64,000 nucleotides of DNA from Acholoe squamosa (lineage: Eukaryota; Annelida; Polychaeta; Phyllodocida; Polynoidae), in the NCBI GenBank assembly GCA_949317995.1, contig OX439040.1, forward strand, positions 75,365,972 through 75,429,971, in the 5' to 3' direction. Position numbers and translations under genes: made by a program. Positions 3,113 through 62,530 of the stretch are shown here, piece by piece (the first letter of the stretch is position 1; each line of letters begins with the position of its first letter). The notes under the pieces were generated by a model, which made no database searches, was not told where the DNA came from, and was given only the letters and a program-made list of their open reading frames with translations.

Positions 3113-3333
3113 ATTTAAGCCTTTAAGAGCTGCTAATGCATTAATGCATCGGTCCCATTGGTGGACATGATGTATGAATGCCGCCCTGGCGAGTTACTCG
3201 CCAGGGCTACATTCATACATCATGCCGAACAATGCACCCCTGTATGGTCAGCATGGTGCGCCAACACTTTATTGGTGCATCATGACGAAGAATGAGCATG
3301 ATGTACTCTTACAGCCCTTAAAGGGTTTAGTCT
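3113..3333. mobile_element. Cloverleaf hairpin repeat, well-preserved copy
   Basis: The outer arms begin cctttaagagctgctaatgc and end acagcccttaaaggg, and are partly complementary over about 50 bp. Inside is a 69-bp palindrome (3166-3234) running from catgatgtatgaatg to cattcatacatcatg, centred on ggcgagttactcgcc. A degenerate second hairpin and a third arm (caacactttattggtgc) follow. With the outer stem, the inner hairpins could fold into a four-way junction. There is no ORF. This is the best reference copy for hairpin 1 of the family. Confidence 0.8.
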
Positions 3334-3473
3334 GGTTTATGACATGATGGTGATTAAGTACAAAGCTAGAAAGGTATCTCGCACTATCCTCTCACTCGTC
3401 ACAGTATACCAGCATCATGTGGACGTGTGTACAGGGGCTATGATCTCTATGAATGTAATATATGATGAATAGA

Positions 3474-3563
3474 CTTGAAAGAATGCCTTTCAGGGGGATG
3501 ATAGAGGCACACCGAGAAACCTCTATCAAGCCGCTGAAAGGCATTCGTTCAAGTCTATTCATC
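3474..3563. repeat. 90-bp hairpin with 30-bp arms
   Basis: Arms 3474-3503 and 3534-3563 are complementary with few mismatches, and an inner gatagagg/cctctatc stem extends the helix to a small loop. The size and shape resemble a precursor-microRNA hairpin, but a fold-back transposon remnant is equally possible. Confidence 0.7.
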
Positions 3564-3937
3564 ACCCATTGCGTTTATATCATGGTCTAGGTCATTCACT
3601 ACATACCAGATGGCGCGACAGGTCTTACAATGCCTCTATCTCACTATAGAGGGGTCCATACTATCCCTATATATACTATAGATTATAATCTCTTCTACAT
3701 TGTCCAGTGGGAAGCGCCATTGCTTGATCTGGAACTAGCGAGTTCTAACTTGAAAAATGTTATCGCCTGGGTGATCTAATATCGATTCCATTATAAAACA
3801 CAAAAGGCACAGAATGCACACATTATTGGTTTATGAAATATGTCTGCTTTCCTTTTGTGTGTAACCTGTTAGATTTAAAACAACGTTCACTCCTGTATTG
3901 GCCACTAACTGGTCTGGAGCTGGTTCCGGCGACACAC

Positions 3938-4028
3938 ACTGATAAGAACTGATAAGATGGGACCAGCATGTCCCTGGAAGTGGGTGTTAACCAGGGACAA
4001 GGTACCCATCATGGTATGTCTTATCAGT
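3938..4028. repeat. 91-bp imperfect hairpin
   Basis: The left arm (actgataag ... tgtccctgg) pairs with the right arm (ccagggaca ... cttatcagt) over about 40 nt with several mismatches. The loop is aagtgggtgttaa. It is probably a fold-back or miniature transposon; no family is recognised. Confidence 0.6.
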
Positions 4029-4348
4029 GGATTTTAGCTCAACCAGCGAAATTCAAGATGGTGGCTCCACAAGGCCTCCATACTGAGTCCTATAGGCAGT
4101 GTTGAACATATCGCTGTAGAACCAATGGAGCGTGTCTGACGAAGCAAGGCGGGAGATCAATGGACCGTGACCGACTGTTAGACAACACAATACAGCGGGG
4201 GTAAAATACATACACCATTTGGTCTGTCAATACTATCGATCTCATAGGGAACTAACTAGGAGGTGGGAGTGGGGAATACTACCCTAAATCTCTACGTATA
4301 AGGCACACTCTGCATTTATGCTTCAGCCTTAAAGGTTCGCTAATGCAG

Positions 4349-4534
4349 CGGGCTTCCCTAGCCCACTTAAAAGGGTATATTTCTCCTCTTTCCTATCCCT
4401 TCAGGATGTGTGTGGTGCACATATGCGCGGGCACCAACATATTCCTCTGTGAATTGTGTAATGTAGCTCTCGCCATGAATATGACCTTAGCTGTCGGAAT
4501 GGCGTTAAACATCTATTACTCACTCACTCACTAA
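4349..4534 (+). mobile_element. SINE-like dispersed repeat, copy 1
   Basis: About 185 bp match 20566-20750 with modest divergence, from gggcttccctagcccactta to a tail reading ggcgttaaacatctattact followed by (CTCA)n. A 3' end of GTTAAAC plus a short simple repeat is typical of retroposons in many animals (family knowledge). No pol III boxes were identified. The 63-codon frame here is not thought to be a gene. Confidence 0.6.
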
Positions 4535-4695
4535 TTCAGGAGTGCATCATACCACTGAAGTGCCCCTCTGGGAGTGTATCGGTAGGGTCAGGGTGATGTA
4601 CGAATACAGCTGAGTTACTCACCAGGGCTACCTTCATGCATCATGGCGACTGATGGGCATGATGTATAATGCACTAGAGGCACTTACAAGTTAAA
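4535..4695. mobile_element. Broken cloverleaf hairpin repeat
   Basis: It contains aggagtgcatcat, gagttactcaccagggctac, ttcatgcatcatggcgac and tgggcatgatgtataatgca in family order, but the arms are decayed. Confidence 0.6.
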
Positions 4696-5228
4696 TGCAG
4701 GAGGAAGCCGCACAGGTCTGCAGCTTGAAAATTGCCTCTTTATAGGCCGCACCCTGATTTCAGCGCAATAATATAAGGCGCATTAGGTGTATGGGTTGGT
4801 GTACAATCCACGGCTAATGTGCAGGGCGAGGGGGGGGGGCTAAAGTTGGACATGCTATGATCCATGGGCCTGGGGATCGAGGAAAGTCTGAAAAAAAAAA
4901 ATGAAAAAAAAAGTAAAGGGGAAAATATTTATGTATCCAATGAAAAAAGGAGTGAAATAAAATGGTGCTATTATATGGTATAGTGAGTGGACAGAGGTGT
5001 ACTGTGCATGCCGTATCTATTATGGGGCTTGGGAGTCTTATGTTGGGCAGATGCAGTCATGCATGACAACTAGATAAGTGGGAAGAATGGATAGGGATGA
5101 GTGAAGGGGTGACATCCATCCTGGGGGTGACGTGGAACGATCCACGTTTTACTCCACGTCATTGGGGGGTAGTAAATAGGTTGAATGTGTATGTCAGTAG
5201 TTCATCTAAATAGGACAAGAAGGCGTTG
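4696..5228. other. Spacer, nothing recognised
   Basis: It is A-rich around 4890-4965 and carries a small palindromic cluster around 5126-5160 (tgacgtgga ... tccacgtca). No gene is seen. Confidence 0.4.
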
Positions 5229-5590
5229 ACCCTTTAGGGATGTTTATGTAGAAGTTTATGTAGGAGTGCATCATGCCCATTGGTTGGTATGATGCACCAA
5301 TAGAGTGCGGGTGCATCATGACCCTTCAGGACGGTATGATTCATGGATACCGCCCTGGTTACTACATTGGTTACTAGACTTGTATTCATTTAACCCTTTA
5401 AGGCCCGCAAATACAGGAGAGCATCACGTCAATCTGTCAGCAGGATACACCTATGATACGCTGGCAATTCTAAAATCTGCCCTTTTGGTATGGTATCAAG
5501 CCTGTAGGGTCGGCATGATACACAAAATTAATGTATTCCAGAGGATTCACTCACCAGAATTGTATCGATATCATGAACCCCATGTATAAT
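5229..5590. mobile_element. Two partial cloverleaf repeats in tandem
   Basis: The first copy shows gtaggagtgcatcatgccca and gatgcaccaatagagtgc. The second restarts at tttaaccctttaaggcccgc near 5390. The 94-codon frame 5305-5589 lies entirely in this repeat and is rejected as a gene. Confidence 0.6.
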
Positions 5591-6535
5591 ACACACCCGT
5601 GCAAAAGCCACGACTTGGGAGTTTAGTATTGTCAAAACCCTGCTTGGTGTACCCTGACAGTATATACCGCAGTAAGCCTCTGAGCCAGTGAGGCTAACAC
5701 CACTTTGAGTTCTATGATTTATTTACATAGGAGGAATTTCAGAAGGTGTACCCTAGCTTAGTTAGATACAAATAGGTATAAAGAGTCAATTTTGGTGGGT
5801 GCCAAGTATAACATACAGAAGCATTAGAGAAGATAGCAGGGTGTATTTATTTTACCCTCCCACACCAGGTGAACACACAGACACCCTCAGGTAAGATAAC
5901 AGACGCTCACCTAGCGTCTCATACACACGCTAACCCCAGCGTCTCATACCTACTGTTATCTTTTACTCTTATCTTTTACTGATAACATCAACACCCAAAC
6001 ACTGGGGCCAGGATAAAAAGGGTATAAAGAAACAAACCGGAAACACGAAGAAGGAACATCTGAGGGCCCTTTTCTTTGAAAGATCATGATTCTTCGATGT
6101 TAGTTTTTTTTCTACGCCCCTGTATTGCATTCTATCATTCATCACAGGGTGTGGTATACGACATAAATCATTCTAATGAGATTTTGGATATAAATACATT
6201 TTCCTTTCTATAATATGTCAGTCACCGAAAACCACAGATCAAGGCAAATCCCACTTTTACACATACCCATGTACATGCATACCCAATATATGGCATGTAC
6301 TTTGGTAGTTTTACTTAATCAGTTGTTTACAGTCTAGTCTTAAATATAAGGGAGTAGAAACATAACTTGGTGTTTCATGTTCATCCCCTATCAAATTGAC
6401 CTTACTGTATATCTAATTTAGCACGTTGATTGACCGGGTACCATTAATTGTTATTTTCAATTAGAATGTTGAATATTGCTGGTGGGTAAGGGGCTGAGGC
6501 AATCAGACTTCTCACTGCCGCCTAATTACCCCTAT
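5591..6535. other. Spacer with weak inverted repeat
   Basis: A short inverted repeat, agataacag ... ctgttatct (about 5892-5966), encloses three tagcgtctcata-like motifs. The right end of a CAGRGGCG-type element (ttctacgcccctg) sits near 6110-6123. Nothing else is recognised. Confidence 0.4.
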
Positions 6536-7005
6536 AACCCTTCAAGGGCCGCTGATGTAGCAGTGCACCATGCCCATTGAAGGGTTCCCACTAGTTAAAA
6601 GTCGGTTAAACCCATTAAAGATCAGTTAAAAGTCAGTTAAGAAGATATTTTGGGGAAAAGTCAATTAGTCAAAAATGGTATTTTGACTTATTTAAGGAGG
6701 TGATTTTCAAAATTTCATGCAATTTTGCCAAATTCCTCTAACATCCTCACTTGAGAGTGAATGAAATTTTTTCGCGAGTCCCGTAAATTATCCAAAATTT
6801 GGTAAGGTCAAAGCCGATAAATGTTAGGTAAACATCAGTTAAACATCAGTTAAAACCATGACCTGTAAATGGTGGGAACCCTGTCGGTGCATAATGCTGA
6901 CTTGCCAGCAATGCAATACCGCAGTTTCAGCATGATGGATAATGTAGTCCTGGCAATAATGCATAAGTGGTCCTTAAAGGGTGAACCATTAAAGTCTGAT
7001 TTAGC
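6536..7005. mobile_element. Cloverleaf repeat split by another element
   Basis: The left part is aacccttcaagggccgctga ... catgcccattga and the right part resumes at tgtcggtgcataatgctgac. About 299 bp with their own inverted ends lie between them (6582-6880). The interruption is clear because the family sequence continues on both sides. Confidence 0.65.
6582..6880. mobile_element. TIR element ending GGGTTCCCAC, inside a cloverleaf copy
   Basis: The left end gggttcccac (6582-6591) is inverted at the right end gtgggaaccc (6871-6880). Inside, the motif (a/c)(t/g)cagttaaa(a/c) recurs near both ends, forming a sub-terminal repeat cluster. No ORF or convincing target duplication is seen. No family name can be given. 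Confidence 0.65.
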
Positions 7006-7171
7006 CTTGATGCACCATGTCCATTGGTAATCTACAGACTCTACACATTTGAGTTTTTTTTTGCCTAACCAATAACATATAAAATTAGAGCGAATCATGT
7101 GGTCCTTCTGTAATTATGTGGGAACAGGACCTGGTTTGCTGCAGCCTAGACACCCATCATTCATATATCGG

Positions 7172-7453
7172 GTTAACTACTTCTACCTTGTATGGTTTAG
7201 GATCTAACTACTTCTACCTTGTATGGTTTAGGATCTAACTACTTCTACCTTGTATCGTTTAGGATCTAACTACTTCTACCTTGTATGGTTTAGGATCTAA
7301 CTACTTCTACCTTGTATCGTTTAGGATCTAACTACTTCTACCTTGTATGGTTTAGGATCTAACTACTTCTACCTTGTATCGTTTAGGATCTAACTACTTC
7401 TACCTTGTATGGTTTAGGATCTAACTACTTCTACCTTGTATCGTTTAGGATCT
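7172..7453. repeat. 31-bp tandem array, 9 copies, alternating variants
   Basis: The unit taactacttctaccttgtat plus (g/c)gtttaggatc repeats nine times with almost no other change. The variable base runs G,G,C,G,C,G,C,G,C, so the array is really a 62-bp dimer copied repeatedly. There are no unique spacers, so it is not a CRISPR array. Confidence 0.95.
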
Positions 7454-11744: not shown

Positions 11745-11990
11745 TTTTAAGCCTTTAAGGCTGTCTAATGCTGGAGAGCATCATGTCGATTAGTCGGCAT
11801 GATGTATGAATACAGCCCTGGTGAGTCAGTCCCCATGCTTTATGATGACCGACAGGTATGATTTATCAACCTCTAAGTGTAAACCCGATACTATGAGAAA
11901 TGCTTTATGAATACATTGATGCACTAATGCAATGCTGGTGAGTGCTGGACTGCATTGATACATCCTGCTGACCTACTGCATCAAGTCACT
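11745..11990. mobile_element. Broken cloverleaf repeats
   Basis: It starts taagcctttaaggctgtcta, then carries gagcatcatgtcgattagtc and ggcatgatgtatgaatacag. Later pieces (about 11905-11985) repeat the tgcactaatgcaatgctggt motif. The arms are too decayed for a full fold. Confidence 0.6.
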
Positions 11991-11996
11991 GCATCA

Positions 11997-12286
11997 CAGA
12001 GGCATAGGAAGCAAATCTTCATACACCCAGCATGGGCCCACCACAACAACCTTAAACTGTCTGTGTGATGACGTCTATATATACCTTTGTATAGAAGAGT
12101 AATTTTTGATGAATTTTAGATCTGATTGAAGGCTCAGGCCCCCATTTTTCCTTTTCCATTACTACTTTGAGATGCAAAGTTTTAGCTTCTTGTCCAATTC
12201 ATTATGAATTCTTGGCAAATTTGGGGGCCCTCCTTTATGATTGAGGGGCTCGGGCCCCCCTGCCCCCACCTTTTCCTACACCCCTG
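11997..12286. mobile_element. CAGRGGCGTAGG-family element, 290 bp
   Basis: It runs from cagaggcataggaagc to ttttcctacacccctg, with imperfect inverted ends. Flanks are CATCA (11992-11996) and CATTA (12287-12291), a 4-of-5 match for a 5-bp target duplication. The interior matches the 14293 copy throughout. No transposase is present. The CAG-start termini with 5-bp duplications would fit a hAT subgroup, by inference. Confidence 0.75.
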
Positions 12287-12790
12287 CATTAAGCCCATGG
12301 GGCTGGCATGATGCTTCAATGTAGCGCTGGTGACTAGAATCGATAGTGCTGCATTTAACTAATCCGTGAAAATGCTTTAATGCACAACCTGCCCTTTAAA
12401 GAGTTCAGCGTTCGATAGACACAGCTCTATAACACGGCCTCAATCACTGTCATCGGGTGGTAAATTGGGGTAATTAAAGTTTAATACTAATGCACCAAGT
12501 TGATTAATGCATGATGTCATCTCCAATGTCCACAGTGCTGGAGGAGGCAGGGACTACAATAAAGTATGGATCAGTTTAACCATCTAAAGGGCTGCAGGGT
12601 GCCTCCAGGTTCATGGTGCTTGGTAGGTCTACTCACCAGCACTGCATTGGTGCATCATGCAGACTCTCCAGTGGTGCTTCAACCATGCATTGTTAACATT
12701 TTTCATGAATGCAGTCTTGGTGAGTAGATTCAACAAGACTGCATTCATGCATCATGACCACTGAGGCATGAAACATTATTAACACATTGT
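12287..12790. mobile_element. Broken cloverleaf repeats
   Basis: Family motifs (gcatgatgcttcaatg, tgcattggtgcatcatgc, tgcattcatgcatcatgacc) recur, with palindromic pieces around 12706-12765. No complete copy is seen. Confidence 0.55.
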
Positions 12791-13399
12791 GAGGCGCTCA
12801 AGGGGGAAAAGGATCTATAGGCTGATCTGCTGCTGCTGTTACTGTAGTATATAGGGGGGTTGTTAATGAGGTAGGAACAGGGTATAATGGTAGGGCAATA
12901 TCTGGTAGTTAGATTCAGTTTTATTGGCTCAGGGACCACCCTGAATCTATACCGCCGGGTAGGTGATGGCATTGGCAAAAAGTCAGTTATCCAATTTTCA
13001 ATCTCAATTTTCTACAAGAAACAAAGCATGTAAACAAATAAAATCACCATACATGAGTAGTTCATATATCAGTCTTTAGTTACGGTGAAGAAAAAAATTC
13101 AAAAATCCATGCATGAGTTCATACAAAATTAAACAAAGAAAAAAGTCGATAAAAATATTTTCTCCAATCCAGTCCTCCATTGGGTTTACCTCCGGGCTGG
13201 ACTTTTCTCTCTTTGTTTCTATTTGTTTCAAAAACAGCGTCTAAAAGTAAGATGGTTTGGACACCTTTCAAAAAACGCGGGAAAGGTCACCCTGAGCCCT
13301 CTGTGCCAATGCATGTCGTTGAATTTTTTTTTCACACTTTTACCCTTTAAGGTTGACAGAATAGTACAGGCGTAATTCTGCCCCAGTGCTCTTGTGGTG
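12791..13399. other. Spacer, nothing recognised
   Basis: AT-rich sequence with no supported gene or repeat boundary. Confidence 0.5.
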
Positions 13400-13540
13400 A
13401 AGTTACATGTAATTGTAAGTGCAGCATTCATGCATGATGACAACCCATCAAATTGCGGTATCATGCATCAATGCGCCATGGGTGAATTATTTGTCGGCGC
13501 CAAATAAATGCATCATGACAACCATTTAACATGATACCTT
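13400..13540. mobile_element. Cloverleaf repeat fragment
   Basis: It shows gcagcattcatgcatgatga and aatgcatcatgacaacc, with no outer arms. Confidence 0.5.
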
Positions 13541-13875
13541 GTGGATCAAGCATTCCGTCCTTGAATGGCTAATGCTACTGCAGCTAGCAATTGGGAGACG
13601 CCATTGACTGGATGGTCGTTATTGACCACATGAATGGTATTGATTAAATTGTAGAAATATCTGACAAGTACCCATCATAAAGTGACTAAATCAACTTTTC
13701 ACTTGATTATTTCATTTAAAGTTTTGCAATCCACAATCTACACATTGAATTGCCTTAGTTCCCCTCTTTTTTGTAAGAAATTGAAAAAGAGAACATCACC
13801 AAAAGAACAAAAGTTTGTCTTAAATTCCTCAGTGATGACAGCACTGGTTCCCTTCCTGCTTCCTTTGCTAGAATA
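13541..13875. other. Spacer, nothing recognised
   Basis: No gene or clear repeat is seen. Confidence 0.4.
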
Positions 13876-14045
13876 GCTTTCATGCATCATGCTGACCTCT
13901 GCCAGTGCATCAACCACTGCACTGCCCTGATGCATCATTCCAATCCTCCAGGGACGTATTGGCCTCATAGGGTCGCCATGATGCATGAATGCAGCCGCTG
14001 CATTCATGCATCATGGCGGTCAATGGGCATGATGAATAAATGTAC
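13876..14045. mobile_element. Cloverleaf repeat with 45-bp perfect palindrome
   Basis: Positions 13974-14018 form two exact 21-bp arms around ccg: cgccatgatgcatgaatgcag and its inverse. Further family motifs lie upstream (tttcatgcatcatgctgacc). The exact arms suggest this copy is young or was recently corrected by gene conversion. Confidence 0.75.
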
Positions 14046-14292
14046 AATCATACAGGCAAACTCCACCTTTGGGTCCGTATTTCAGCCTAAACATTTTTGT
14101 ACGACAGTGTGAGTATACTGGGGTCTGGGGGCCCAGGGGCCCAGGAAATTTTGCCAATTGCCAATTGTAGAGGTTTTTGGGGATGTCTAAAAGCATCTGC
14201 TTAAAATCTTACTAAGACGCACGTCCCCCCCCCCCCCCCACCCATATAAATGTAAAGTGAGATCTCATCGGATCTAGATGATTAACACGGTG

Positions 14293-18190: not shown

Positions 18191-19904
18191 AATTACAAGA
18201 TGGATTACTGAGCACCAGGCCTGGGTGGAGAGGTGAAGATACAGTAGATGGGTCTTTTACCGAAGGCTTCCCATACAGTGTATCTACTGTAGATATCAGT
18301 GTTCATATAACTAGGTTTTAATTCCCATCATATACCCTCTACTGCTATGGCTTCTTTCAATACCAGGAAACTATTTTAGTTCTCTGCATATATTTGCATG
18401 TATAGTTCTTATACGAAGTTGCTGTTTTGAAATAGTTTTAGTCTTTCCATGCAGAGCTTGAATATGGAAAATACTTGAAAGCCACCAGCCCTAGACCCCT
18501 TTGAATTCACCTTTAGTAAATAATCATGAACTCTAGGAATGAATATGAGAAAGAGCGAATTTGAACATTTGATTGCGGTAAAAGAACCTCCTTTTAGATA
18601 TAGTATATACCATAAATACCCTGCATATTTATAAGATGTGGCTCATACACAAGGATGAATCAATATACTTAGTCCAATAGTGCTAGGAATTACATTGAAG
18701 ACCTTGCTGTATTTAGATACTAATACTTTATAGTAGGCAAGTCTCAATTTCTGTTCAACCATCAGCATTTTGCAGGTTTCGCTTCCCATCTGATGGTGTG
18801 CCTTAATGTAACATAATTACTGTAGGAAGCTCTTTTAAGCTTTCAGTGCTCCCTTCTCCCACTGGGGCTTTTTTTGTGTTGAAAGGGATATTGGCACATT
18901 GTGATAGTAACTTTATACCATAGTGCCAGAATGACTGCTGCTTCCCCTCTCTTAATGATAAGTTAATCATATACCTAGTATACTTGGATAAAAATGGATA
19001 ACTAAAGTGCACTAAAAGTCTATGTATGCTGATGCTTTGTAATGTGTAAGCTCCACAGCATTATTTTGAATGTGGTTGGGTGGCCTTTTTGTGTTCAGGG
19101 CTTGCCTCATATGTGAAGATTAAGCCTGTCATCCCTTAAAATATGTGTCTTGTAGGCGATGGTCATATTACGATTGATTAGTATCAAATTGCTCAAAATC
19201 AAGCGTGACATGTGCTATATCCAATACATGAGGATTTACATTATATAATATATCAAGTCTGTGTCAGTCTAGCAGTGTCAATAATCTTATTCCTTCTGTC
19301 ATTACAGGTATGTACCCATGTTTTTACTCAAGTCTACTCCGGTAAGCTTTTAATTTTGAATTTAATCTTACAAGCGAAGGCATACGAGCAAATCAAAAGC
19401 TTACTCTAGCTTACCGGATGATCTGAAAGTTTTGTTATGGCTTATAGGTGTATTGGAATGATGTAGTAAAGTGCTAAGACGACAAATATAATGATTAAAA
19501 AAAAGCCAGATGACTCCTGTAGATTCCTTGCAGAAGCCTGCCGTGCTGCATATGTATTCTAGATGCAGCCTACATAATATTATGTGACATGTTGCAGTAC
19601 ATGCAATGGTGGACCCACTATGGTGAAAATAGAGGCATCAAACTTTAATTTCATCAAATTCCTTTAAAAGTAATTTTTGTTCAAAACAAAACGTTTAAGC
19701 AGTCTGCTCTCACATATTTTTGAGAGGGACCTGCTTTAAAGCAGTGGATGGGGTCCGATCAAACAAATGTGATGCTAAACCGGTCTGGAGACAAATATTA
19801 CAAAGAAATGAGTCAGGTCAAAATATCCAAATTGAAAATATGAAATGATAGCTTCCTACCTCATTTAACTTTATGGGAACAATGGAGTGCTTTGATACAC
19901 TATG
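18191..19904. other. Spacer, nothing recognised
   Basis: AT-rich sequence without supported genes, arrays or paired termini. Confidence 0.5.
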
Positions 19905-20010
19905 GTCCTTTGTTGGCATGATGCATGAATGCAGCCGTGGTAAGTGACGTACCCTTGCTGCATTTATGCATCATGCCGACCCTTATCTCAAAATTTGCAA
20001 AAGTCACAGG
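19905..20010. mobile_element. Cloverleaf repeat fragment with one hairpin
   Basis: The arm ggcatgatgcatgaatgcag is inverted as ctgcatttatgcatcatgcc around a 20-nt centre. Outer arms are not preserved. Confidence 0.65.
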
Positions 20011-20062
20011 CATGATGCCTGAAATCTTTATTCTACAAAAAAGGACATCCTAAAAAATGATA

Positions 20063-20289: not shown

Positions 20290-20565
20290 GCACATACAAA
20301 CTCTCCAGTGCTTATTAAATGTGACTGTAGTTGATAATTAGTATCAATTAGATATCTGAGACAATTTGTGTGCACACCCTTACGCCTTATCTCCACCCCC
20401 GATAAAGGGAATTAAGTGCAGCAAACAGGCAAACACACCTGTATGGTCAGTGTAATGCATCAACACAGTGCTAATAACTTATCCGCTGCCACCGCCTTAG
20501 GTCATGGCACTGCATTTATACATGTTGACAACAGATGAATATAAAGGCAATCAAGGACAGGGGCT

Positions 20566-20750
20566 TCCCTAGCCCACTTAAAAGGCTCAACTTCTCATCT
20601 TTCCTATCCCCTCAGGATGTGTGTGGTGCACATATGCGAGGCACTGACACATTCCTCTGTGAAATTGTGTAATGTCGTTCTCGCCATGAATATGACCTTA
20701 GCTGTCGAAATGGCGTTAAACATCTATTACTCACTCACTCAAGCTGACAT
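20566..20750 (+). mobile_element. SINE-like dispersed repeat, copy 2
   Basis: Same family and orientation as 4349-4534, ending ggcgttaaacatctattact plus (CTCA)n. Single-base differences from copy 1 are scattered along the whole length. Confidence 0.6.
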
Positions 20751-22784: not shown

Positions 22785-23010
22785 TGATGCATCACGCCCT
22801 TCGTTGGTGCATCATGACGACCATTTGGTATGATGCACCCCTGCAGTAATGGCTTTTAAGGGCATTCATTGGAGCATCATGCAGACCCACAGGGGTGATA
22901 CAATGAAGTGCTGGCGAGACTGCTCGCCAGCACTTCATTGGTGCATCATGACGACCAATGGACATGATGCACTCCTGCATTAGCGGCCTTTAAAGGGTTA
23001 AAGGGTTAAC
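22785..23010. mobile_element. Cloverleaf repeat, well-preserved third hairpin and right arm
   Basis: An exact hairpin has arms caatgaagtgctggcgag (22901-22918) and its inverse (22923-22940) with a 4-nt loop. The canonical right outer arm follows: gaccaatggacatgatgcac, tcctgcattagcggccttta, aagggtt. Confidence 0.8.
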
Positions 23011-33532: not shown

Positions 33533-33579
33533 TGTGCTTTTGGTGTAATAATACACAAGTGCAGCTCTTCCCAGTCTTC

Positions 33580-33900
33580 TCAATCATGCATCATTACCGT
33601 GCAGTTGGGATGACACCCGCTACATCCTTGCATCATGTCAACCCTTTGCAGTTGATACTGTCCAACAATGGGTTGGCATGATGCATGGCTGCTCACCAGA
33701 ACTGGATTGGTTGATTATGATGACAGCTGTATGGCCATCATGTGCCCACCCATGAAGTTTTAAGCCTTAACACATGACACCTCAAGGTTCTTGTTCCTTT
33801 GTCATCATGATGCTCCAATATTGTGCTAGCAGGTGGACCACCAGCACATAGAATGTGACCTTGGAGGCAACATGCACCCTTGAAAGGGTTGATAAGATTT
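33580..33900. mobile_element. Broken cloverleaf repeats
   Basis: It carries caatcatgcatcattacc, gttggcatgatgcatggctg, atgatgctccaatattgtgc and a terminal acccttgaaagggttgat. Order is partly preserved; arms are decayed. Confidence 0.6.
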
Positions 33901-35371: not shown

Positions 35372-36208
35372 TCTTTAAAAGCTGATAATGAACCAATGCA
35401 TCATGTCCATTGGTGGTGGTCATGCAGGAATGCATGGTGCATTACACACTATCTATGACTATGATCATGCATTATGCCAACCATATGATGCTTTGATTTT
35501 CAATGATTCAGCCCTGGGTATTTGTGTTGAAAACACGCATTCAATTTTCTATTGACTTAGATTAGAGAATTATATTAATGATGTAAGTATGGTCAGTTCA
35601 ACTCAGATTTTGAATCCTAGATTTTTGCTCAGATATTATGCCCATGAGAAAGATGACAACTCCCATTTAATTTTCAGGGACATGTGAATTGTAATGTTTT
35701 CTGTATCAATATCGCACTGGGTGACCTGTGTTCAGAAACTCACATCAGCTAGTTCAAATCCCAGTATACAGTACATGTTCGCACTATATGATTTCCCCTT
35801 AGTAGGCCATATTACAATTGGGAACAGCCTTGGCCTTATCCCAGTCCCCCCAGTGTTGGCACATGCTTGCAGTATGATGTCACGTCTTAATCTGACAGGG
35901 AATTCATCACGTGCCGTGCGGCTGTCACACACCTATGACGCCCCGTCCGCTGTCACCACTATCTGACTGAGTGCCCCGCTATTGGATTAAACACCCACTA
36001 CTGTGTAGACACAGACATGGCCAGAATCCATGTAGGAAATCAGCCGGAACCGGCTACCTCCGAGACATTATGCCAACCATATGATGCTGATACACTCCAG
36101 AAGGGTCAGCATGATGCTTTAATCAAGTGCCGATGGATGGACATTGGTACATCATGCTGAACAATGGGCATGATGCATTCATGTAATAGCTCCCCTTGAA
36201 GGGCTAAG
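35372..36208. mobile_element. Cloverleaf repeat split by a 574-bp insertion
   Basis: The left piece starts ttaaaagctgataatgaacc and runs to 35492. The right piece resumes at 36067 and ends gatgcattcatgtaatagct ccccttgaagggct. The join is marked by a long direct repeat on both sides of the insert. Confidence 0.75.
35493..36066. mobile_element. Retroposon-like dispersed repeat C, copy 1, with 22-23 bp target duplication
   Basis: The bases at 35470-35492 are repeated exactly at 36066-36088, directly outside both ends. Duplications this long are typical of LINE-mediated (target-primed) insertion and rare for DNA transposons or LTR elements (family knowledge). The insert matches 41521-42095 with a few percent difference. 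No poly-A tail or ORF is present. A B-box-like gttcaaatccc at about 35754 is too far inside for a standard tRNA-SINE head, so the class is unsettled. Confidence 0.75.
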
Positions 36209-38149: not shown

Positions 38150-38854
38150 GTACCTAAACTATTCTGGACAGATTTGCATTGCTGAGAGAACAGACTAAAA
38201 CTATGGCTGGGACAAGATTGCAAGATCCATTACTAATCTGTTGCCAAGTGGCAACATTTGGCTTGTCAGAGTGTCGGTTTTTTTTTGCACCTTGGGTGGG
38301 GAGAGGGGAGGGCCTTTCATGATGTTACCAGGGCTGCATTCCTACATCATACCAGCTGTGTAGGGCTATAGGGGCCAAATTCCTGGTATACCAGGCATTC
38401 CTGGTTTTGTCTTTCTGTACTAAATATTGTTAATTTCCTGGGCAAAGGGTGTCGAAAGTCCTGTTTTCCTGTTTTTTTCGTCTGCTGGCGCGTGGCATCT
38501 CTGGGCCCAAAGCTACAGAAGAATTCCTCACTAGGATTGCATGGTATCAACAGATGATAATGGACATGCCAACCTGTGGAGGCATTGTGTTGCCCTTAAT
38601 GGGTTTAAAAGTCACAACTACAGACAGAATACATCATCAAAAACCACCTACTATCACAAAGTGGAAGCCAATCCCAAAATGGTGGTGTGACTCTCTTTTT
38701 GAACCAACATCTACTTATTTTAATTGGCTGCCTCTATGCTGGAGTGTAGGCAGTGCCATGATCAGCCCTGGTGGCTTGTGGCGGTGTTAGACCGGGCACA
38801 CAGGGATTTTTACCCTTTATGGTTTACACAGGGTTCTAATCATGAAGGATAAGT
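38150..38854. other. Spacer, nothing recognised
   Basis: The 113-codon frame 38449-38790 has no motif and is treated as chance. Confidence 0.45.
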
Positions 38855-39240
38855 GCAATGGAGGCAATCGACTCGCTAGGGCCACATTCATGCTTCATGC
38901 ACCTCGAGGATTGATGCACTCACGATAAATCAGCATGGTGCATGGCTGAAGATTTTCCAGTGCTGCATTGGTGCATCGTGACAATGAAGGTATAAAACCT
39001 ATAGAGGCATTATGGAACCCTTGAAAGCTCAACTATATTGGCCGCAAATGGTGGAGGGCATCATGCCCATATGCCCTGTCATCATAATAAACCAATGAGT
39101 GAGCAGGCATGCATCATGCCAACCCTCATCACCATAGGGTCGGCATGATGCTTGAATGCAGCCCTGGTGAGTAACTCGCCAGGGCTGCATTCACGACCAA
39201 TGGCCATGATACACTCCTGCATCATGTGTCTGCTTAAGAG
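38855..39240. mobile_element. Two rearranged cloverleaf repeats
   Basis: The first part (38855-39010) has cattcatgcttcatgc and gcattggtgcatcgtgac. The second (39040-39240) has an intact hairpin from gcagccctggtgagtaactc to gccagggctgc, plus ggtcggcatgatgc. The arm order differs from the full copies, so deletion or template switching has occurred. Confidence 0.65.
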
Positions 39241-39755
39241 TTAAGGCCCTAGGGGCAGACAGTGGCAGGGTACATCAAAGTGCTGATGGAGTGGTGGGAT
39301 AATTTACTATGGGAACCAATGTTAGAGGGATGTGGTGGTGGTAGTCTCAGCTATCTAGATAGGGTCTGGTAACTGCCATTGTGATGTACCAGTACAATCC
39401 TGTTGCAAAACTCTTTTCAAGCTCCAGTTGGGGTGTATATGGATGACCTGAACTCAAGGTCTGGCTTACGCATGAGTACTTCATATGCACAGGGGTTTAC
39501 GTTAGCGGATAGAACTACTCTAAATCGGTGTATCTAGGACGCAACCTTACCCTCATATGAGCACCTTAGTTCATGTTGTATAGGGTGCGCCCTGACTTCA
39601 ACACGATCATATAGGCCGGCACAGCTGAGAGTCATTCTCATGCATAGGGCACAGCTTATAAACACTTACAAGATTTACAATAGTTTCTAAAATTGATTTC
39701 CTTACTGTAATGAGTATATGCTAAATAGGCACCATATCAAAGATTCAGTTCATTA
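39241..39755. other. Spacer with decayed TIR pieces
   Basis: Fragments like tatagggtgcgccctgactt (39577) resemble TACCGTAA-family interiors. No gene is seen. Confidence 0.4.
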
Positions 39756-50083: not shown

Positions 50084-51720
50084 GTAGTTTTAGCTGGTGG
50101 TTGTCCGGGGAGTAATTCATGCTGTAGATGGAGTATTTGTCATGCACAGAGAGAGGCCCCGACAGGGGTAGTAGACACCTTCATAGACAGCCTCCTACAC
50201 TCCTCTTGGACTGATTGTGAGGAATAGATAACACTGGTGGTTTTGTGTTATGGGAATATATGACATTGTCACAGTCTCCCTAACACTCTCCTGAGATCAT
50301 GTAAATCAAATACTGTCTCAGCATTCTACGCAACTACATAGATGACATATATCTGCGGCGATCTTTTTGTTAAACTTTGAAATGCCAATGGACCTTCGAT
50401 GCATCATACCCATGACTCATTTCTTTCTTTCTTTTTTTTTCTTTTTTTTTTTTTACATTTGTATAGGAATAATAGGGCACATATCAATGGGTGTTTCAGG
50501 TTCTTTGATTTCATCGCAAAATAATGATGGAAAGATTTGACAACTGTGAAAGAGGGGAAGAATAAGAAAGGTGAATGGATGAAAAAATATGAAAATCCTC
50601 AAAAAAGTATGAATACTGTCTAGAAATTAAGGAAAATTCCTAAAAGAAATTACTAGATTCCAAAAAAAAATTGTTGGCCCTGTTTTGCTTGGTCGGTCAC
50701 TTACTGGAAACACTACTTTTCTTTTTGGCCTTAGACCACTACTGTAACTACACCTGGTGCCATTTTGTTTCTACCATGAGTGCAGGACGATCATATAAGC
50801 CTCACCTAGGTTTTTGACTTTGCACATTTTCAGTATTCTATAGTGTTACATACCCACGTATAAATCACGACCTATCAGCCATTGAAGAGTTTTTGCATAC
50901 AACCTAAGATGTATGTGCCAGAGTCTATTGTATATTTAGATAGTAATGGAGAGAAATATATACGTTTGAAGCTGTATCTAATACTGTCTTTTCTATCGAT
51001 TTCCAGGTATGTAGCTGTGTTAAGGCCAGTGTGAGGGTAAGAGAACTGTTTCTCATATTCCCAGGTATCAATGATATCTGTGATTGCAGCATCCAATCTG
51101 AGGTTGATAACCTTTCTAACTACATACATGCAGACTCCTGTTGTTTTGTTTTCTTAGTTTTCTCAGTTTTCCAGAGATCTTTCAGGGTCAGCCCTTCGTT
51201 CGTCCAGATCCAATGAAATATCATTAAGGTGGTAGGGAGAGTCTCAGTTAATTTTTAAAAAGGAAAATCTTGAAAAAACACCAGAAGGCATTCTACTTTT
51301 GCAGGGGTATATATTCACCACGCATGAATCCTTGACAGTGGACAAGATGGCTACCTTCACAATATATCCCGGAAACATCCCTATACCATTCTGTATAGTT
51401 TTGCTGGTTACTGTTAGTTGACATTGTACCTAGTGTACGTAGCTGATACCAGCAGGGTACCAGCGGGACCCCCCATATGTACCCCTAGGGTGCCGCTCTT
51501 TGTTATTTCACTTGTTCCCTTCTGTACAACCACAATATGCATGCGGTCATGCAGGCTACCAGCAATACCAGCCATCCAGGCACCCACCCCAGTAACACAT
51601 CTCTGTATACCTCCCAAAAAGAAACACAAAATGCTCTCTACTGGGACTGGAAAATGGTAGTCAACTTCAAATTCCATAAAATGCATCTATTGCTCAGTGC
51701 GTGGTTGGCAGTTGATTTGC
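50084..51720. other. Spacer with polypyrimidine run and weak dispersed repeat
   Basis: A CTTT/T-rich run spans 50421-50454. Segment about 50500-50735 resembles 56225-56550 (ggccctgttttgct-ggtcggt, then actggaaac). Nothing coding is recognised. Confidence 0.4.
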
Positions 51721-51836
51721 CAGCACAGCACAAGTGCATCATGCAGCACAGCACAAGTGCATCATGCAGCACAGCACAAGTGCATCATGCAGCACAGCAC
51801 AAGTGCATCATGCAGCACAGCACAAGTGCATCATGC
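51721..51836. repeat. 23-bp tandem repeat, 5 copies
   Basis: cagcacagcacaagtgcatc plus atg repeats five times without change, then continues as ctgattc. The gtgcatcatg core is that of the cloverleaf family, so it probably amplified from one arm of such an element. Confidence 0.95.
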
Positions 51837-52086
51837 TGATTCTTTGGGAATGCATCAATTATCCAGTATGATACATATATTTTATGTTGGAAACAGTGAT
51901 ATACAGCAGCCCCATAGGCTTAACCTTGGAGCTCCGTATTTCACACACCCCATGTAATAACCTGGTGCCGTATTCCACGGCCAGTAAAAGCACCCTAATC
52001 TGTCCTAAAACAGATAGAAAGTCATCTTTTTATTTGATTTGAAATAAGTTTTGGTCATTTCTGACTAAGATAACATGAAATAAATA

Positions 52087-52188: not shown

Positions 52189-52266
52189 TCTATATATGCA
52201 CGATTCATTGCTGTGAATGCATCATCTTACAGCAGAGCCTATAGTACTTTTGGTGTTATAGCCCCT

Positions 52267-56700: not shown

Positions 56701-57149
56701 CCCCTCAATATGAATAGCTATTTAGCATAATTGTGATCCTCATGTCAGGTATCTAAGGGAATCACTTATTGAGCATAGATCACAGCTAATGGTCTCATTT
56801 GCTCCCACTGACTTTGAATTGTGTTTCTGATTCAGCGAACTGGCCATTTCAGATTCTAGGAAATTTCCAGTACACATACAACAGACAAGGCCGGTATATC
56901 AAGACATGATTTCAGTGTACCGCTAAGTGATATACCTGGTAACATGTATACACTGTCTGGCTCCGAGTGACACTCCATCGCTCTCCGTCCTAACTTCCAC
57001 TAATGAGATAAATTATATATGTCTACAGGGAGCGGTAATAGCTGAATACGATCCAAGTGGATGCAGCGGACACCAGTATCAGTGACACCTCAGACCAGTC
57101 TTAGTAATTGGATTCACACCTATCTCCATGTCTTAAACCATGCAGGTCT
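53740..57149. other. Long spacer with decayed repeat pieces
   Basis: A 90-codon frame (54046-54318) is the least AT-biased frame here but shows no domain. Decayed TACCGTAA-like pieces (ataaggtgcc, catataaacc) occur about 54430, 54955 and 55100. Segment 56225-56550 repeats part of 50500-50735 (gggtcagccctgttttgct). No gene is supported. Confidence 0.45.
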
Positions 57150-57370
57150 GCAAAGTGCATTAATGCTTCATCACATTTGCTTGTCATGATGCATGAATGT
57201 AGCTCTGGGGAGTAACTCGCCAGGGCTGCATGGCGACCTTACACACACACTGCTGAAGGGTCAGCATGATGCACCAATGCAGTGCAGGTAATTCTTGGTG
57301 AATTATGCTGAAAGAAAGAACATGAGCCTGGAGGCACCACCAGGCTCTTGAAGGGTCAAAGTCATTAATC
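57150..57370. mobile_element. Cloverleaf repeat, partial
   Basis: It contains tgtcatgatgcatgaatgta, gagtaactcgccagggctgc, gggtcagcatgatgcaccaa and a closing ctcttgaagggt. Confidence 0.6.
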
Positions 57371-57944
57371 ATAGGCAAGCAGAAAGGATATCCCATTAAA
57401 TGTGCCACAGGCAATCCCTTCTGCTTGCCTGTACATAGATGCAGACACAGAACTTGCTCTCAACTTATAGGTTTCACTAGAGATATAGCCTACCATATTG
57501 ACCATTGTTTCTGAGAATTAGAGTGATTACAGGTTGGACGGGTAACTACTACTAAAATGAATCAAGGAAATCAAACGACATTTGAATCCAGAAAGTACAA
57601 CGCTAACCTAACCCAATTTTATCTGAATTAAACTTTAAAAGTTGAAAATGATCCGTTGTCAAGTCAAGTTCTCCTTTTTAAAAGCAAAGTGAATTTGAAA
57701 AAGTGATAAGATGCAAGATAGTGATTCTCAAAGAAGAAATGGGAGCAGTAAATTCACCAAAATTAGGCACTTCTCCAAGCCCATCCTTGAAATGTAGTGA
57801 CTATTAAAATGTAGGCTAGGTATTGAGCTGCCCGTGATGTGTCGGGGGCGGCACGGTCCATACAGGGTGTGGGTGAGTGCATGCACGGGATATGCATATT
57901 GACGCATTGACCTGCGGATCTATAGTGGGGTGAGCCTTAAACCA
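57371..57944. other. Spacer, nothing recognised
   Basis: No gene or repeat boundary is seen. Confidence 0.45.
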
Positions 57945-58935
57945 TTAGATATGGATATGGCATTAATGCCTCATGCCCACCGGCTGTCATTATGCATTAA
58001 TGCCACTATGACGAATAACTCACCACAGCTGCATTCATAAACCAGGGATGAAAGAGTTCAAGGTTTTCCTTGATTTCAAGGTTTTTTTCACTCACTTAAG
58101 AAAAATAAGTTTTCTTGAAAATCCTCAGAAAACAGGATAAATGAGTCACAAATTACCTCCAGAGGTTGCATACATGCACACAGTCAGGTCCCACAACACT
58201 GCATACAGTGGCAGCATGCCAGTTTTTAGTTCAAGGTTTTCAAGGATTCTCAAGTTTTTCCTTGAAAACTTTCCCCTCTTTATTGGTGTTTGTTCCACTC
58301 TTCAGTGTAGTCTTAGCAGCAAGCTATAGTTCCTATGCTAGAAGAGTGTCGGATAGTATACCCCTTTTCTGCGTGTTATGATTTCACCATGTAACTGTAT
58401 TGGTCATTTATTCCCTGCACCCTTTGATCTATCTCTATACATAACATTGTAATTGGTCCCTAGGTCATGTTGCGCAAAGGCACCACTACCAGTAGATCAG
58501 GTGGTGCATATTTTGGGTATGCTATCCGAACAAGACCTTGGAAAACAGCTATACAGTAACATTCTGAAGGGATCCTAGGACATACTCTGCAAAAGGGCCA
58601 TAATGTGCACCTGGGTATAGTATCCGAACAACATCTAATCTTGAAAAACAGCTTTTCCTGTTATTTGAGGACAAACTACACCCTTATACAACACCTACTG
58701 CCTCCTCCCCCCCCCCAACCACACAAACCCTGTAACACACTTATGGATGGGACTGGAGGGAATATACAGTGCATTTGAAGTTGTTTCCTTTTTCAAGGTT
58801 TTTTGTCATCGTCGACTTTCATCCCTGCATACATCATGCTGACCATGCACAACTGAATTCTGGGTGAAGGTCTTATGAAACTCTAATATAGTGCTGGTGA
58901 GTTGACTCCTCTAAGTGATTCTTTGGCAATTGCAT
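57945..58935. mobile_element. Cloverleaf repeat split by a CAGGGATG element
   Basis: The left part runs gatatggcattaatgcctca to agctgcattcataaac (58042). The right part resumes at catacatcatgctgaccatg (58829). Removing 58043-58828 restores the family order (ctgcattcatacatcatgctgacc in two pieces). Confidence 0.7.
58043..58828. mobile_element. CAGGGATG-family element, 786 bp
   Basis: It runs from cagggatgaaag to ctttcatccctg (exact 12-bp inverse). tcaaggtttt(c)ccttga motifs cluster near both ends and near 58228-58265. Flanks cataaac and catacat could be a diverged 7-bp target duplication. Frames of 62-71 codons inside have no motif. It is the longest copy of this family here and still has no transposase. 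Confidence 0.75.
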
Positions 58936-59775
58936 GCACTGGGTAGGCCTATGTATATTGCCGCATTGACCTGTGAATATAGAAGGGTGAAGCTAAACCC
59001 TGTAAATGCAGATAGTGCATTAATGAGTAAGGTCCATTAGTTGTCATGATGCATGGAAGTAGCAATGGTGAGTTACTCGCCAGGGCTACAGTCCTGGTGA
59101 TTAACTTACCTGGGTTACATTATTGATGTATACAACATGCTGACCCTGCATGGCTGGATACTCTCTGAAGGTCGCATAATGCTCTAATCAAGTGCTGGTG
59201 AGTAGACCTTGCAAGCGCTCCATTGATGAATGCATGCACAGTGTACGTGCATATTGACGCTTAGATGTGCGAATCTATAGTAGGGCGAGGCTTAAACCTT
59301 TAAATGCAGATACTGCATTAATGCCCATTAGTCATCATGATGCATGAATGCAGCCATGGCGAGTTACTCACCAGGGCTACATTCATACATCGTGTTGGCA
59401 GTGCATGGCTGGATACTCCCTGAAGGTCGCATGCTGCTCTGATATAGTGCTGGTCAGCAGTAGACCCCCCCCCCCCAAGCGGTTCATTGGCAACTGCATG
59501 CACCGGGTATGTTTATTGATGCATTGAACTGAGAATCTATAATGGGGTTTGGCTTAACCCAATAAATACAGATAATGCATAATGCCTATTGGTGGTCATG
59601 GTGAGTGAATGCAGCCCTTGCGAGTTACTCACCATGGCTACATCCCTGCATAATTCCTGCATAGCGGCGGGATGATGCGCCAATGAAGTAGTGTGCGAGT
59701 CTACACTTCATTACTGCATCATGCTGACTTGCGGGCATGATGCATTTCTGCATCAGCTGCCCTTAAAGGGTTGAT
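58936..59775. mobile_element. Run of three cloverleaf repeats
   Basis: Copies lie at about 59010-59240, 59285-59480 and 59565-59775. Each has gtcatgatgcatg(g/a)a, gcgagttactc(g/a)cca and a third-arm piece. The last ends canonically (tgcatttctgcatcagctgc, ccttaaaggg). Between them the phrase gcatgcac..ggtatg..tattgacgcattga.ct recurs about 57885, 58935, 59225 and 59495, so a larger unit of roughly 280-300 bp has been duplicated in tandem. Confidence 0.7.
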
Positions 59776-60639
59776 GTGTTTGAGGCTGGTACATATATGG
59801 GTCAGGTGCAGGGTGAAAGTTGTGGGTTATTTATTAGGGTTACTGTGCAGCTATATTCACACTGTACCCAGTGCATGTAGGGTACAGACGGTAACAAGCG
59901 GGCTGTAATAATAACAGATCTGTCTGCGGATGCTCTTCTCTGTTTGTGAGAGGTCATAGAAGCTCTCTTCCATTGGGAAAAAAATCATTTACCTATAGAT
60001 ACAGTGTCACATTATATTGGATGAGTCCAAAACTATCCATTTTTTGGCAGTTTTCTTTTTTCTTTTCTTTTCTTTTTATAGACTTTCTTTTTTGTTCAAG
60101 TTTGAGACAATTTCACTCTATTCAAATAATTGCACTCAGATTGAAAAATTCACATCCCTTCCACTCAATGTTTTACATTGACGTCCATATCCTGTCCGGA
60201 GATAGGAAAAGGACGCCAGGAAGGATACCAAATATCTGGGCAAGAGTGGTGATCCAAAGAGGAAGTCAAAATGAGTCCTAAAATCATGAGCATCCTGGCA
60301 AAGAATCCATTAAGAGTTACTTCACACCTTTTGATGGTTTTATAAAGAGCGTTTGATGAAGAAATTGTGACTTTACACACTGGATGACCTCTGCACTATT
60401 CCTACTTACTGCTTTGCATTAAGGAATTTATGAAAGAGGATGTCAATCTTGTGTTTGAAATTTCATCCAAGGCGAGTCTCCCTGGAATGGACAAACCTCC
60501 TGTTCATAGCAGTGCAGGGTTGAAACTTGAATCAACTTCTCAGTGCAATCAAAACCAAGCTTGGAAGGTTTTGTGTGCCTCCTTACTGGACACATAGGAC
60601 AAATAGAAGCTTTGTGCCCAATAAATGCAGCAATGGCAA
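59776..60639. other. Spacer, nothing recognised
   Basis: A CTTTT-rich run at 60050-60092. The 111-codon frame at 59946-60281 crosses it and has no motif. Confidence 0.45.
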
Positions 60640-60850
60640 GAAGCTTGCTGCATTCATGTATCATGCTGACCCTACAGGATTAATTGAAAAACCGTTTAGG
60701 AATTTCTTCCTCCAGGTTTGAAAAATACCAATCGCGCTGTTCAGCTCTTGGAGGGCCAACATGATGCACAAATGCTGTGTGGGTGGGTTACTCACCAGCA
60801 CCATATTGTGCTGCACGATGTATAAGCCCTCACCTTGAGAGACGACTAGA
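60640..60850. mobile_element. Cloverleaf repeat, partial
   Basis: It carries tgcattcatgtatcatgctg, gagggccaacatgatgcaca and gttactcaccagcaccatat, but no outer arms. Confidence 0.55.
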
Positions 60851-61309
60851 AGGTGCACCTGAGGCCTGAAATGGGGTTGCTATTCCTTACTCCGCACCAG
60901 GGGTCTAAATGGTCTATAAGCCAGGGCTTATTCGCAGGGTTTTAGGGTACATAAGGAGTTTTTCAGCCTTGTAAATCCCACATATAAGGTACACTCTAAG
61001 CTTATCGAGACGCTATAAGCCGCAGGAGGCCTCTGGAATGGTCTATAAGCGGTGATTTTTTTACAGGGGTTTTACGATGGATACCATAAAGGTTAAGTGT
61101 GCTTACACCTTTAGATATGAGGCAGTGGTGCCTACAGATAACACTACTAAGACTGTTCATGTGGAGTGGTAGCAGATTGAGTGGGGCTACAGCCGGTGTG
61201 TTCCCACCATCCCGCTAACCAATACCCAGTGTGTGGACGTCTGGTACGGCGACATGCTCCATTGACCCTTGTCTACCACAGCTGTACACACCCAGCAGTT
61301 CAGTGCTGA
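60851..61309. other. Spacer with decayed TACCGTAA-like pieces
   Basis: Pieces such as ggtctataagccagggctta and cacatataaggtacactcta recall TACCGTAA-family interiors. No clear ends are seen. Confidence 0.4.
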
Positions 61310-61505
61310 TTAACCCTTTAAAGGCCGCTATAAATGTATCAATGCATCATACCCACTGATGCATGCAGCAGTGGTGAGCTACATTCATGCATCATGCCGA
61401 CCATACAGGCTTGATACACCTGAGGGTCGGCATGATATGCTTTCCACACATCATTGGTGCATCATGACGACCATTGGGCATGATGCGCTCCTGCATCAGA
61501 GGCTC
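61310..61505. mobile_element. Cloverleaf repeat, nearly full length
   Basis: It starts taaccctttaaaggccgcta, then aatgcatcatacccactgat, cattcatgcatcatgccgac, gagggtcggcatgatatgct and cattggtgcatcatgacgac, and ends cattgggcatgatgcgctcc tgcatcag. All arms are recognisable; hairpin 1 is shortened. Confidence 0.75.
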
Positions 61506-62137
61506 TGTATAAGCCGCTTCCTCAGTTCAGGGCAATGCTATAAGCCATAGGAGGACTCTAAAGTTGTATACTATATGCCATATCATATAAGCAGGATTTC
61601 AGAGTAGTCAACTTCTATTTTTAAATAGAATGAATTTTCCCCATAATGGCTTACATTTCTCTTTTCATTTGGGGGTTAGCTCATAGGTGCAATTTCAGTT
61701 TATGGAGAAACTTATTTTTAAACCTGTCTCACTTAGGCCAAATAAGGGTTAACTCATAGGCAATTTTGACCCATTATGTTGCCTGTTTGGGTATCAGTCC
61801 TACAAAAGAATCACTGCCTGACTTTATATCTATTGTATAATCTCTTTTGTTTTTAGGTGATATTAATGATACATATAACTTGGCATGTGCGCCCCTGCTG
61901 CCCACCTCCATGCCCCCAACCTCCTACCCCCCTCCGCCTACCAGTAGGTTGATCTAAGAGAATTGAATAGTACTAAGCCTATTATCATACATCAGGGCTG
62001 GAGCAATGCCAGAAAATCTTTGATACGAATAAGATATATTCGCCTAGCAGCCATTTGGTTGCCCTGCTGCAGTGTCCTTAGCATGCTGCAATCGATAGGG
62101 TTAGAGCGGTCCATTCCCTGCCGCATAGGGCTGTGAT
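61506..62137. other. Spacer, nothing recognised
   Basis: No gene or repeat boundary is seen. Confidence 0.45.
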
Positions 62138-62370
62138 CCTTTAAGGGCCTCTGATGCAGGAAAGCATCATGCCCACTGGTCGTCATGATGCATGAATGCA
62201 TCCCTGTTGTGTGACTTGTCATTAATGCATCATGCTGACCCTACGGGGTTGACATATCACCTGGAGGGCTGTAATGATGCTCCAATGAAGTTCTGGTGAG
62301 CAGTCCTGCCAGCACTTCATTGGTGCATCATGAGGATCAATTGGCATGATGCACTCCTGCATTAGCAGCC
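62138..62370. mobile_element. Cloverleaf repeat, full-length reference copy
   Basis: The outer arms 62138-62192 and 62324-62370 are about 80% complementary over 47 bp (gggcctctgatgcagg ... against cctgcattagcagcc). Between them lie hairpin 1 (decayed), hairpin 2 (ctgaccctacggggttga) and hairpin 3 (ccaatgaagttctggtgag ... ctgccagcacttcattgg). This order defines the family. No ORF is present. Confidence 0.8.
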
Positions 62371-62530
62371 ATTTTGCCTATTGGTAGAAAGATGCACCAA
62401 TGAAGTGCTTGCAAGCAGTCATGACAGCACTCGGAGCATCATGCTAGCCCTCCGGGAGTCAGCAGGATGCATGAATGCAAGTTACTCACAAGGGCTGTGC
62501 ATTCATGCTCAACGCGTGTACGGCCTGAGA
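62371..62530. mobile_element. Second cloverleaf repeat in tandem, partial
   Basis: It continues with gatgcaccaatgaagtgctt, ggagcatcatgctagccctc, caggatgcatgaatgcaagt and gtgcattcatgctcaacgcg, ending cctgagagggtta. Confidence 0.6.

Follow-up and report, generated by a model that had tools for sequence, protein, structure and literature searches.

What kind of element folds into a cloverleaf, and how has it spread? The question is raised by a 64,000-nucleotide stretch of the polynoid annelid Acholoe squamosa (the window; G000:C6:75365972-75429971, genome G+C here about 42%), part of a 1.48-Gb genome of 63 contigs of which C1 to C18 measure 54-127 Mb. A first-pass annotation of the window had described an abundant repeat family of more than 20 full or broken copies, in which an outer stem encloses three hairpins, here called H1, H2 and H3. 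We find that this abundant, oddly structured, piggyBac-like miniature inverted-repeat transposable element (MITE) is real, and that its cloverleaf is best explained by the duplication of modules within a long terminal inverted repeat (TIR).

The consensus unit and its abundance

A first consensus, built from the 39 best genome matches of one window copy, defines a unit of 250 bp that runs CCCTTTAAGGGCCGCT...AGCGGCCCTTAAAGGG with TTAA on both sides. Folded with DNA parameters, the consensus forms a four-way junction with 113 pairs over 258 nt (-132 kcal/mol, z = -25); almost no base of the junction is unpaired, and about 88% of the consensus is base-paired. The outer stem comprises 24 + 30 pairs (TTAA forms the first 4 of the 24), and the TIR measures about 56 bp with a few mismatches. 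H1, H2 and H3 contain 18, 22 and 19 pairs, respectively. A second consensus, from 20 further copies found via the first, has the same arms. The plan of the first-pass annotation is therefore nearly perfect in the consensus, whose fold bears out its description of a family resembling miniature transposons, laid out as several hairpins around a four-way junction. The unit is not one simple inverted repeat, nor are the inner hairpins unrelated secondary insertions; they are integral to it: 37 of the best 40 genome matches span it, aligning from position 5 or earlier to position 250 or later. The four copies that had been singled out as references each fold better than all 200 shuffles, at 62134-62373 (RNA, z -8.7), 3113-3333 (DNA, z -10.2), 22785-23010 (DNA, z -9.0) and 61310-61505 (DNA, z -3.4), but they are unequal, and only the one annotated at 62138-62370 has all arms.

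The claim of more than 20 window copies holds. The core word GGCGAGTTACTCGCC (at most two mismatches) occurs at six places in the window, with 11 strand-matches against 0.01 expected, and a family profile made from 39 genome copies outside the window finds 29 merged stretches in it at E ≤ 1e-5, totalling 4,674 bp (34 at 1e-2). A random sample of 20 stretches of 10 kb (200 kb, with positions drawn using stand-in lengths for C3, C8 and C13) holds 18 family stretches of 2,683 bp, or about 1.3%, with 8 of the 20 stretches matched; the same profile gives no match in the reversed window or the reversed random sample. Scaled up simply from 18 per 200 kb, the genome total would be on the order of 10^5, counting copies together with fragments, an estimate whose error is wide because copies cluster. 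The consensus as genome query returns 3,393 first-look candidates, and the best 40, which were scored, all match at 87-92%. For the window copy and the consensus alike, the 40 places scored lie on many chromosomes and all match, although the two lists are not independent, at least four loci being common to both.

Divergence from the consensus is 6-15% (median 8.5%) among 35 near-full-length copies, and has a median of about 23% for window copies (n = 23) and about 24% for random-sample copies (n = 15), each with at least 200 aligned positions. The recent movement proposed by the first-pass annotation is only partly borne out. Pattern scans of viral contigs returned no relatives of the family, and a search of open-access papers for the terminal sequences returned only papers unrelated by title. 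No four-way-junction MITE appears in the literature searched, judged by title and abstract opening, with most subscription papers outside that search.

Ends, class and piggyBac elements

When 20 full-length copies are aligned with their flanks, the conserved block is bounded by TTAA on both sides with 250 bp between, the TTAA columns being 0.70-0.95 conserved on both sides and those just outside at most 0.55. Exact TTAA is retained on the left in 22 of 44 near-full-length copies, on the right in 21 and on both sides in 11, and in a wider copy set at 39/76 and 35/72. The unit ends TTAA-CCCTTT...AAAGGG-TTAA, with TTAA-CCCTTTAAGGGC at both consensus ends, and the 26-bp terminus TTAACCCTTTAAGGGCYGCTRATGCA has 1,725 exact genome matches, its reversed pattern none. 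These ends match the published piggyBac hallmark of TTAA flanks and CC[C/T]T ends (PMC2872659): the MITE carries TTAA at both borders and the CC[C/T]T motif in matching TIRs. The 250-bp unit falls in the short, non-coding class and, judged by its length, would be too short for a transposase. We consider it likely that the family is a non-autonomous DNA transposon of piggyBac type, a 250-bp MITE inserted at TTAA.

Among the closest known systems are the CMITEs of Acropora corals, which share TTAA flanks, CCCTTT ends (the family II TIR is CCCTTTAAGCCCTA) and the MITE length class, and for which tandem arrays and piggyBac transposases in the same genome are reported (PMC2872659). CMITEs are about 100 bp long with TIRs of 13-14 bp, and the sections consulted describe no cloverleaf (PMC2872659); the MITE here is 250 bp long, has three hairpins inside TIRs of about 56 bp and is strongly biased toward the distal parts of chromosomes.

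Transposases of the PF13843 family are matched by 90 pieces in the genome, which we grouped by hand into 37 groups. Three of the eight loci read have a pair of inverted ends, TTAA-CCCATT or TTAA-CCCTCT, that enclose the transposase and are separated by 2.7-3.3 kb: L089:372-3442 and L090:75-3345, where the match falls within open reading frames 486 and 443 aa long, and L093:1114-3854, where the matched pieces contain stops. A loose criterion for TTAA-ended inverted repeats gives 9 random matches in 20 x 5.5 kb, so only CCC-starting pairs around a transposase match were accepted. These three elements resemble the MITE in their TTAA and CCC-starting inverted ends around a PF13843 match, but their inner TIR sequences are unlike the MITE's, and none of the three is therefore its direct parent. 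An autonomous partner with the same TIR, for which the first-pass annotation had proposed to look, was not found among the eight loci read. Beside two other piggyBac transposase loci lies a 38-bp minisatellite, TTAACCCTTTATGAATGGCATGATGCATTGATGCA, that resembles the MITE terminus (L091:1-790 and L092:3700-4440); in L092 it adjoins tandem hairpin modules.

Several observations weigh against a piggyBac-type MITE. The MITE's inner TIR occurs in none of the eight transposase loci read, out of 37 groups. In contrast to the well-preserved MITEs, 27 of the 37 hand-made groups are situated over 16 Mb away from any chromosome end. When 44 joined-flank queries were compared with the sequence gathered, no contiguous empty site was among the matches listed, and the TTAA could in principle belong to the unit. 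Tandem duplication also supplies part of the local copy number.

TTAA is common to more than one superfamily, Sola3-like elements being one TTAA-targeting candidate, and it is unlikely that the MITE belongs to such a superfamily, whether Kolobok/T2-like or Sola3-like, instead of piggyBac. T2-MITEs and Xmix of Xenopus (Kolobok) share the TTAA target, and the right end of the MITE holds TTAAAGGG, like the T2 terminal motif (TTAA target, AGGRR; PMC6004289). Beyond this inner TTAA, however, the conserved unit continues through CCC/GGG as far as a second TTAA, which leaves AGGRR in an internal position; no AGGRR/RR motif stands at the terminus next to TTAA, where the unit begins TTAA-CCC. T2-MITEs and Xmix end in AGGRR rather than CCCTTT, and the Kolobok transposase has THAP domains (PMC6004289), whereas in this genome CCCATT and CCCTCT ends flank piggyBac transposases, no search aimed at a Kolobok transposase having been made.

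A second alternative, that the family spread mainly via segmental and tandem duplication and not by transposition, would accommodate the window array at 58826-59651 with its common flank, the copy clusters in L040 and L041, and duplicate-like matches at C12:71.27, 71.34, 71.44 and 71.57 Mb and on C57. The latter (G000:C12:71268952, 71338283, 71440847 and 71571863, and C57:43911) share the same span, 3-258, at 89-90% identity, which suggests a segmental duplication at about 71.3-71.6 Mb of C12. Against this origin for the family, the flanks of the 20 full-length copies have no common sequence, and the MITE-masked flanks of only 4 of 44 copies matched other gathered sequence, none across the junction; we regard it as very unlikely. 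Under the favored piggyBac assignment, a transposase supplied in trans would cut at the TTAA/CCC ends and paste the MITE into new TTAA sites.

Internal modules and arm changes

Each unit contains six occurrences of the words GCATCATG and CATGATGC, which alternate in orientation and lie in the outer stem and at the bases of the arms; they may be transposase binding sites. The arms of H1 and H3 agree at 22-23 of 28 positions, which none of 1000 shuffles equals, and without the shared CATGATGC the agreement still exceeds all 1000 shuffles, narrowly (19 against a maximum of 18). From this similarity beyond shuffles, H1 and H3 look like paralogous, duplicated modules. Further amplification is seen in L041, where at least three tandem copies of the H3 module follow one another every 72 bp, and in L033, which has extra hairpins. 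These tandem module arrays resemble what is described for Xmix, in which an internal segment was amplified into the simple-repeat family Xstir (PMC6004289). The cloverleaf probably arose in steps, as a module CATGATGC-arm-loop-arm-GCATCATG within the long TIR underwent inverted duplication and slippage.

A four-way junction almost without unpaired bases also invites a different mechanism, in which copying or repair acts on the folded strand itself (an extruded cruciform, or hairpin DNA in single-stranded form), amplifying the element and correcting its arms. Amplification or correction via folding has been proposed for some fish hairpin elements; the Angel-type elements are short, palindromic and fully folding, with a single hairpin and not a four-way junction. 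The first-pass annotation had likewise read exact hairpins at 13974-14018 (a shortened H1) and 22901-22940 (H3), both of which are present, as a sign of ongoing correction or recent movement.

A first block-permutation test started from 106 copies placed on the consensus, of which the alignment filter retained between 30 and 56 for each helix; 58 of the 106 came from loci chosen by similarity to one window copy. H1 (56 copies) has 19 compensated pairs against 7.8 when permuted, its paired fraction being reached in 0/1000, and H3 has a weak excess (35/1000 permutations); the outer stem and H2 have no excess. Of the 19 compensated H1 pairs, 9 trace to a single change at one pair, and a second change at that pair brings the number to 11, which speaks against correction. 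A second test used 35 near-full-length copies, the 44 minus those outside 225-275 bp. Its five helices have 6, 4, 0, 8 and 6 compensated pairs against means of 6.6, 3.4, 1.0, 6.5 and 4.1, with no excess in any helix; one-sided changes number 512 against 38 double changes, and the arms of each hairpin match within a copy no better than between copies. We place more trust in the second test because it rests on full-length alignment and on copies partly found via the consensus.

Divergence is lower in paired columns (0.078) than in the 30 unpaired ones (0.165), as correction would have it. Constraint among active copies may instead account for this difference, as may poor alignment of the loops, the least alignable of which are among the unpaired columns. 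We conclude that copies mostly decay without arm correction, and copying or repair of a folded strand is quite unlikely; the correction proposed for Angel-type elements is not seen in the 35 copies here. Ongoing arm correction was rejected, as the compensatory changes that the annotation had suggested looking for are not in excess in these copies and the H1 signal did not recur. After insertion, the arms would simply decay, and exact hairpins such as that at 22901-22940 would have survived by chance or consist of younger arms.

The same 35 copies bear on a structured non-coding RNA, or retrocopies of one, as the source of the family. The RNA fold of one window copy is much better than those of shuffles, yet the 35 copies have no covariation, the window has no Rfam match at gathering threshold, and the family has long TIRs and TTAA at both borders, while the alignment of 20 copies shows no 3′ tail, so that we hold this origin to be extremely unlikely.

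Chromosomal distribution and window copies

The best genome matches are concentrated in the outer quarters of the chromosomes, which make up half of the sequence: 38 of 39 for the window-copy query and 35 of 37 for the consensus query, from which 3 of 40 matches were dropped (two on C3 and one on the small contig C57), or 37 of 39 once the C3 length is included. Positions of the 26-bp terminus were taken from the first 100 of its 1,725 places, all on C1 (127.10 Mb). Of these, 73 fall in 0-16 Mb (4.6/Mb), 8 in 16-112 Mb (0.08/Mb) and 19 in 112-116.4 Mb (4.3/Mb), so that among the listed termini the MITE-rich zones have sharp inner edges near 15.7 and 112.3 Mb and well-preserved copies drop roughly 55-fold from the distal to the interior zones. 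All 14 exact genome matches of a 47-base terminus lie less than 15 Mb from an end (distances by hand), in zones that make up about one third of the genome. As a control, the tail of a short interspersed nuclear element (SINE)-like repeat, ATGGCGTTAAACATC, has 8,277 exact genome matches and reaches 1.4x the genome mean in the first 12.45 Mb of C1, the part that this comparison covers, against about 4.2x for the MITE terminus (61 sites).

In the random sample, 9 MITE stretches (median score 87) fall in the 5 sampled stretches that lie no more than 16 Mb from an end, and another 9 (median 32) in the 15 interior ones (Mann-Whitney p 0.010); the 16-Mb cut was set after seeing C1, and stretches in one locus are not independent. 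Together with the match positions, these scores show that older remnants are present in the interior and that well-preserved copies are distal. Since the piggyBac groups are mostly interior, TTAA-targeting as such does not explain the distal bias, which would reflect a preference for insertion into a distal compartment, or for survival there, in the most recent burst. A broader proposal joins the two peculiarities of the family: the fold would contribute to mobility, either extruded as a Holliday-like cruciform or by arraying paired transposase sites, and recent insertions would be compartment-targeted, almost only to the outer ~15 Mb of each arm with sharp inner edges. We regard this as doubtful, if conceivable.

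For the copies of the window itself, arm contents come from a lenient global alignment and serve as a guide only. The most complete (62134..62373, + strand), 16% from the consensus, has the outer stem, H1, H2 and H3, and is abutted by a partial inverted copy (62370..62530, -). The remaining references of the first-pass annotation are family sequence with losses. The copy at 3113..3333 (+) keeps both TIRs and a nearly perfect H1 between flanks TTTAA and GGGTTTA, has a degraded H2 and has H3 partly deleted, with most of its 5′ arm gone; that at 61310..61508 (+) has an intact left end TTAACCCTTTAAAGGCCGC and H2, with H1 and H3 reduced; and the third (22789..23000, +) is a composite of two right-hand pieces with the exact H3 hairpin 22901-22940 and the right end GCGGCCTTTAAAGGG-TTAA.

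Toward the left of the window lie a diverged copy, 21% from the consensus (4529..4693, -), a partial copy best preserved at its right (5228..5370, -), an old copy with the left end TTAACCCTTTAAGGCC (5391..5611, +; its best profile match is on the - strand, the unit being nearly symmetric), a terminal fragment (6535..6579, +) and two head-to-head fragments with no strand assigned (6876..7029). These are followed by an old copy with the left TIR and H1 (11748..11997, +), an old partial copy (12278..12401, -), an old copy or copies (12486..12804, -), an old copy of uncertain orientation (13343..13570, +), the copy with the exact, shortened H1 hairpin at 13974-14018 (13865..14049, -) and a copy with part of H1 (19870..20022, +). 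Further along are an old copy with a fragment (33546..33888, +), an old partial copy (35373..35495, +), a partial copy of uncertain orientation (36061..36203, -) and an old copy, also of uncertain orientation (38799..39034, -), that adjoins a better preserved one, 14% from the consensus and without H3 (39034..39242, -). A copy at 57134..57358 (+) precedes another (57938..58039, +) whose left flank is common to an old tandem array of flank-plus-element units (58826..59651, +; period about 260-300 bp, about 70% identity). The copies of this array, including that at 59293..59524 (+), are old tandem duplicates of copy and flank, not separate insertions. A copy with the right end GCCCTTAAAGGGTT (59555..59772, +) and two small fragments (60620..60820, +) complete the set, together with a family fragment that contains a minisatellite (51695..51860, +) of five exact 23-bp units ending ...GTGCATCATG, with family-like words at 51721-51836.

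Other repeats share the window. Open reading frames at 24409-28726 match the reverse transcriptase PF00078 and, below cut-off, the phage-integrase-type recombinase PF00589, and by this layout are a predicted DIRS-type retroelement, just upstream of which is an 80-bp tandem repeat in five copies (23968-24358). A 45-bp C-rich minisatellite array of 3.5 kb with strong strand skew occupies 45969-49526, and tight minisatellites (94-97% matches) are found at 30567-31143 (32 bp, 18 copies) and 7174-7454 (31 bp, 9 copies). The SINE-like repeat, whose tail ...ATGGCGTTAAACATC is followed by ACTC repeats, occurs at about 4340-4540 and 20560-20740.

With copies that gain and lose hairpin modules, the family offers a clean case for how MITEs acquire internal structure and seed minisatellites. 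The distal concentration is more surprising than the cloverleaf and deserves a whole-genome look; the contrast between the distal and interior zones of C1 makes compartment-specific insertion or retention directly testable.

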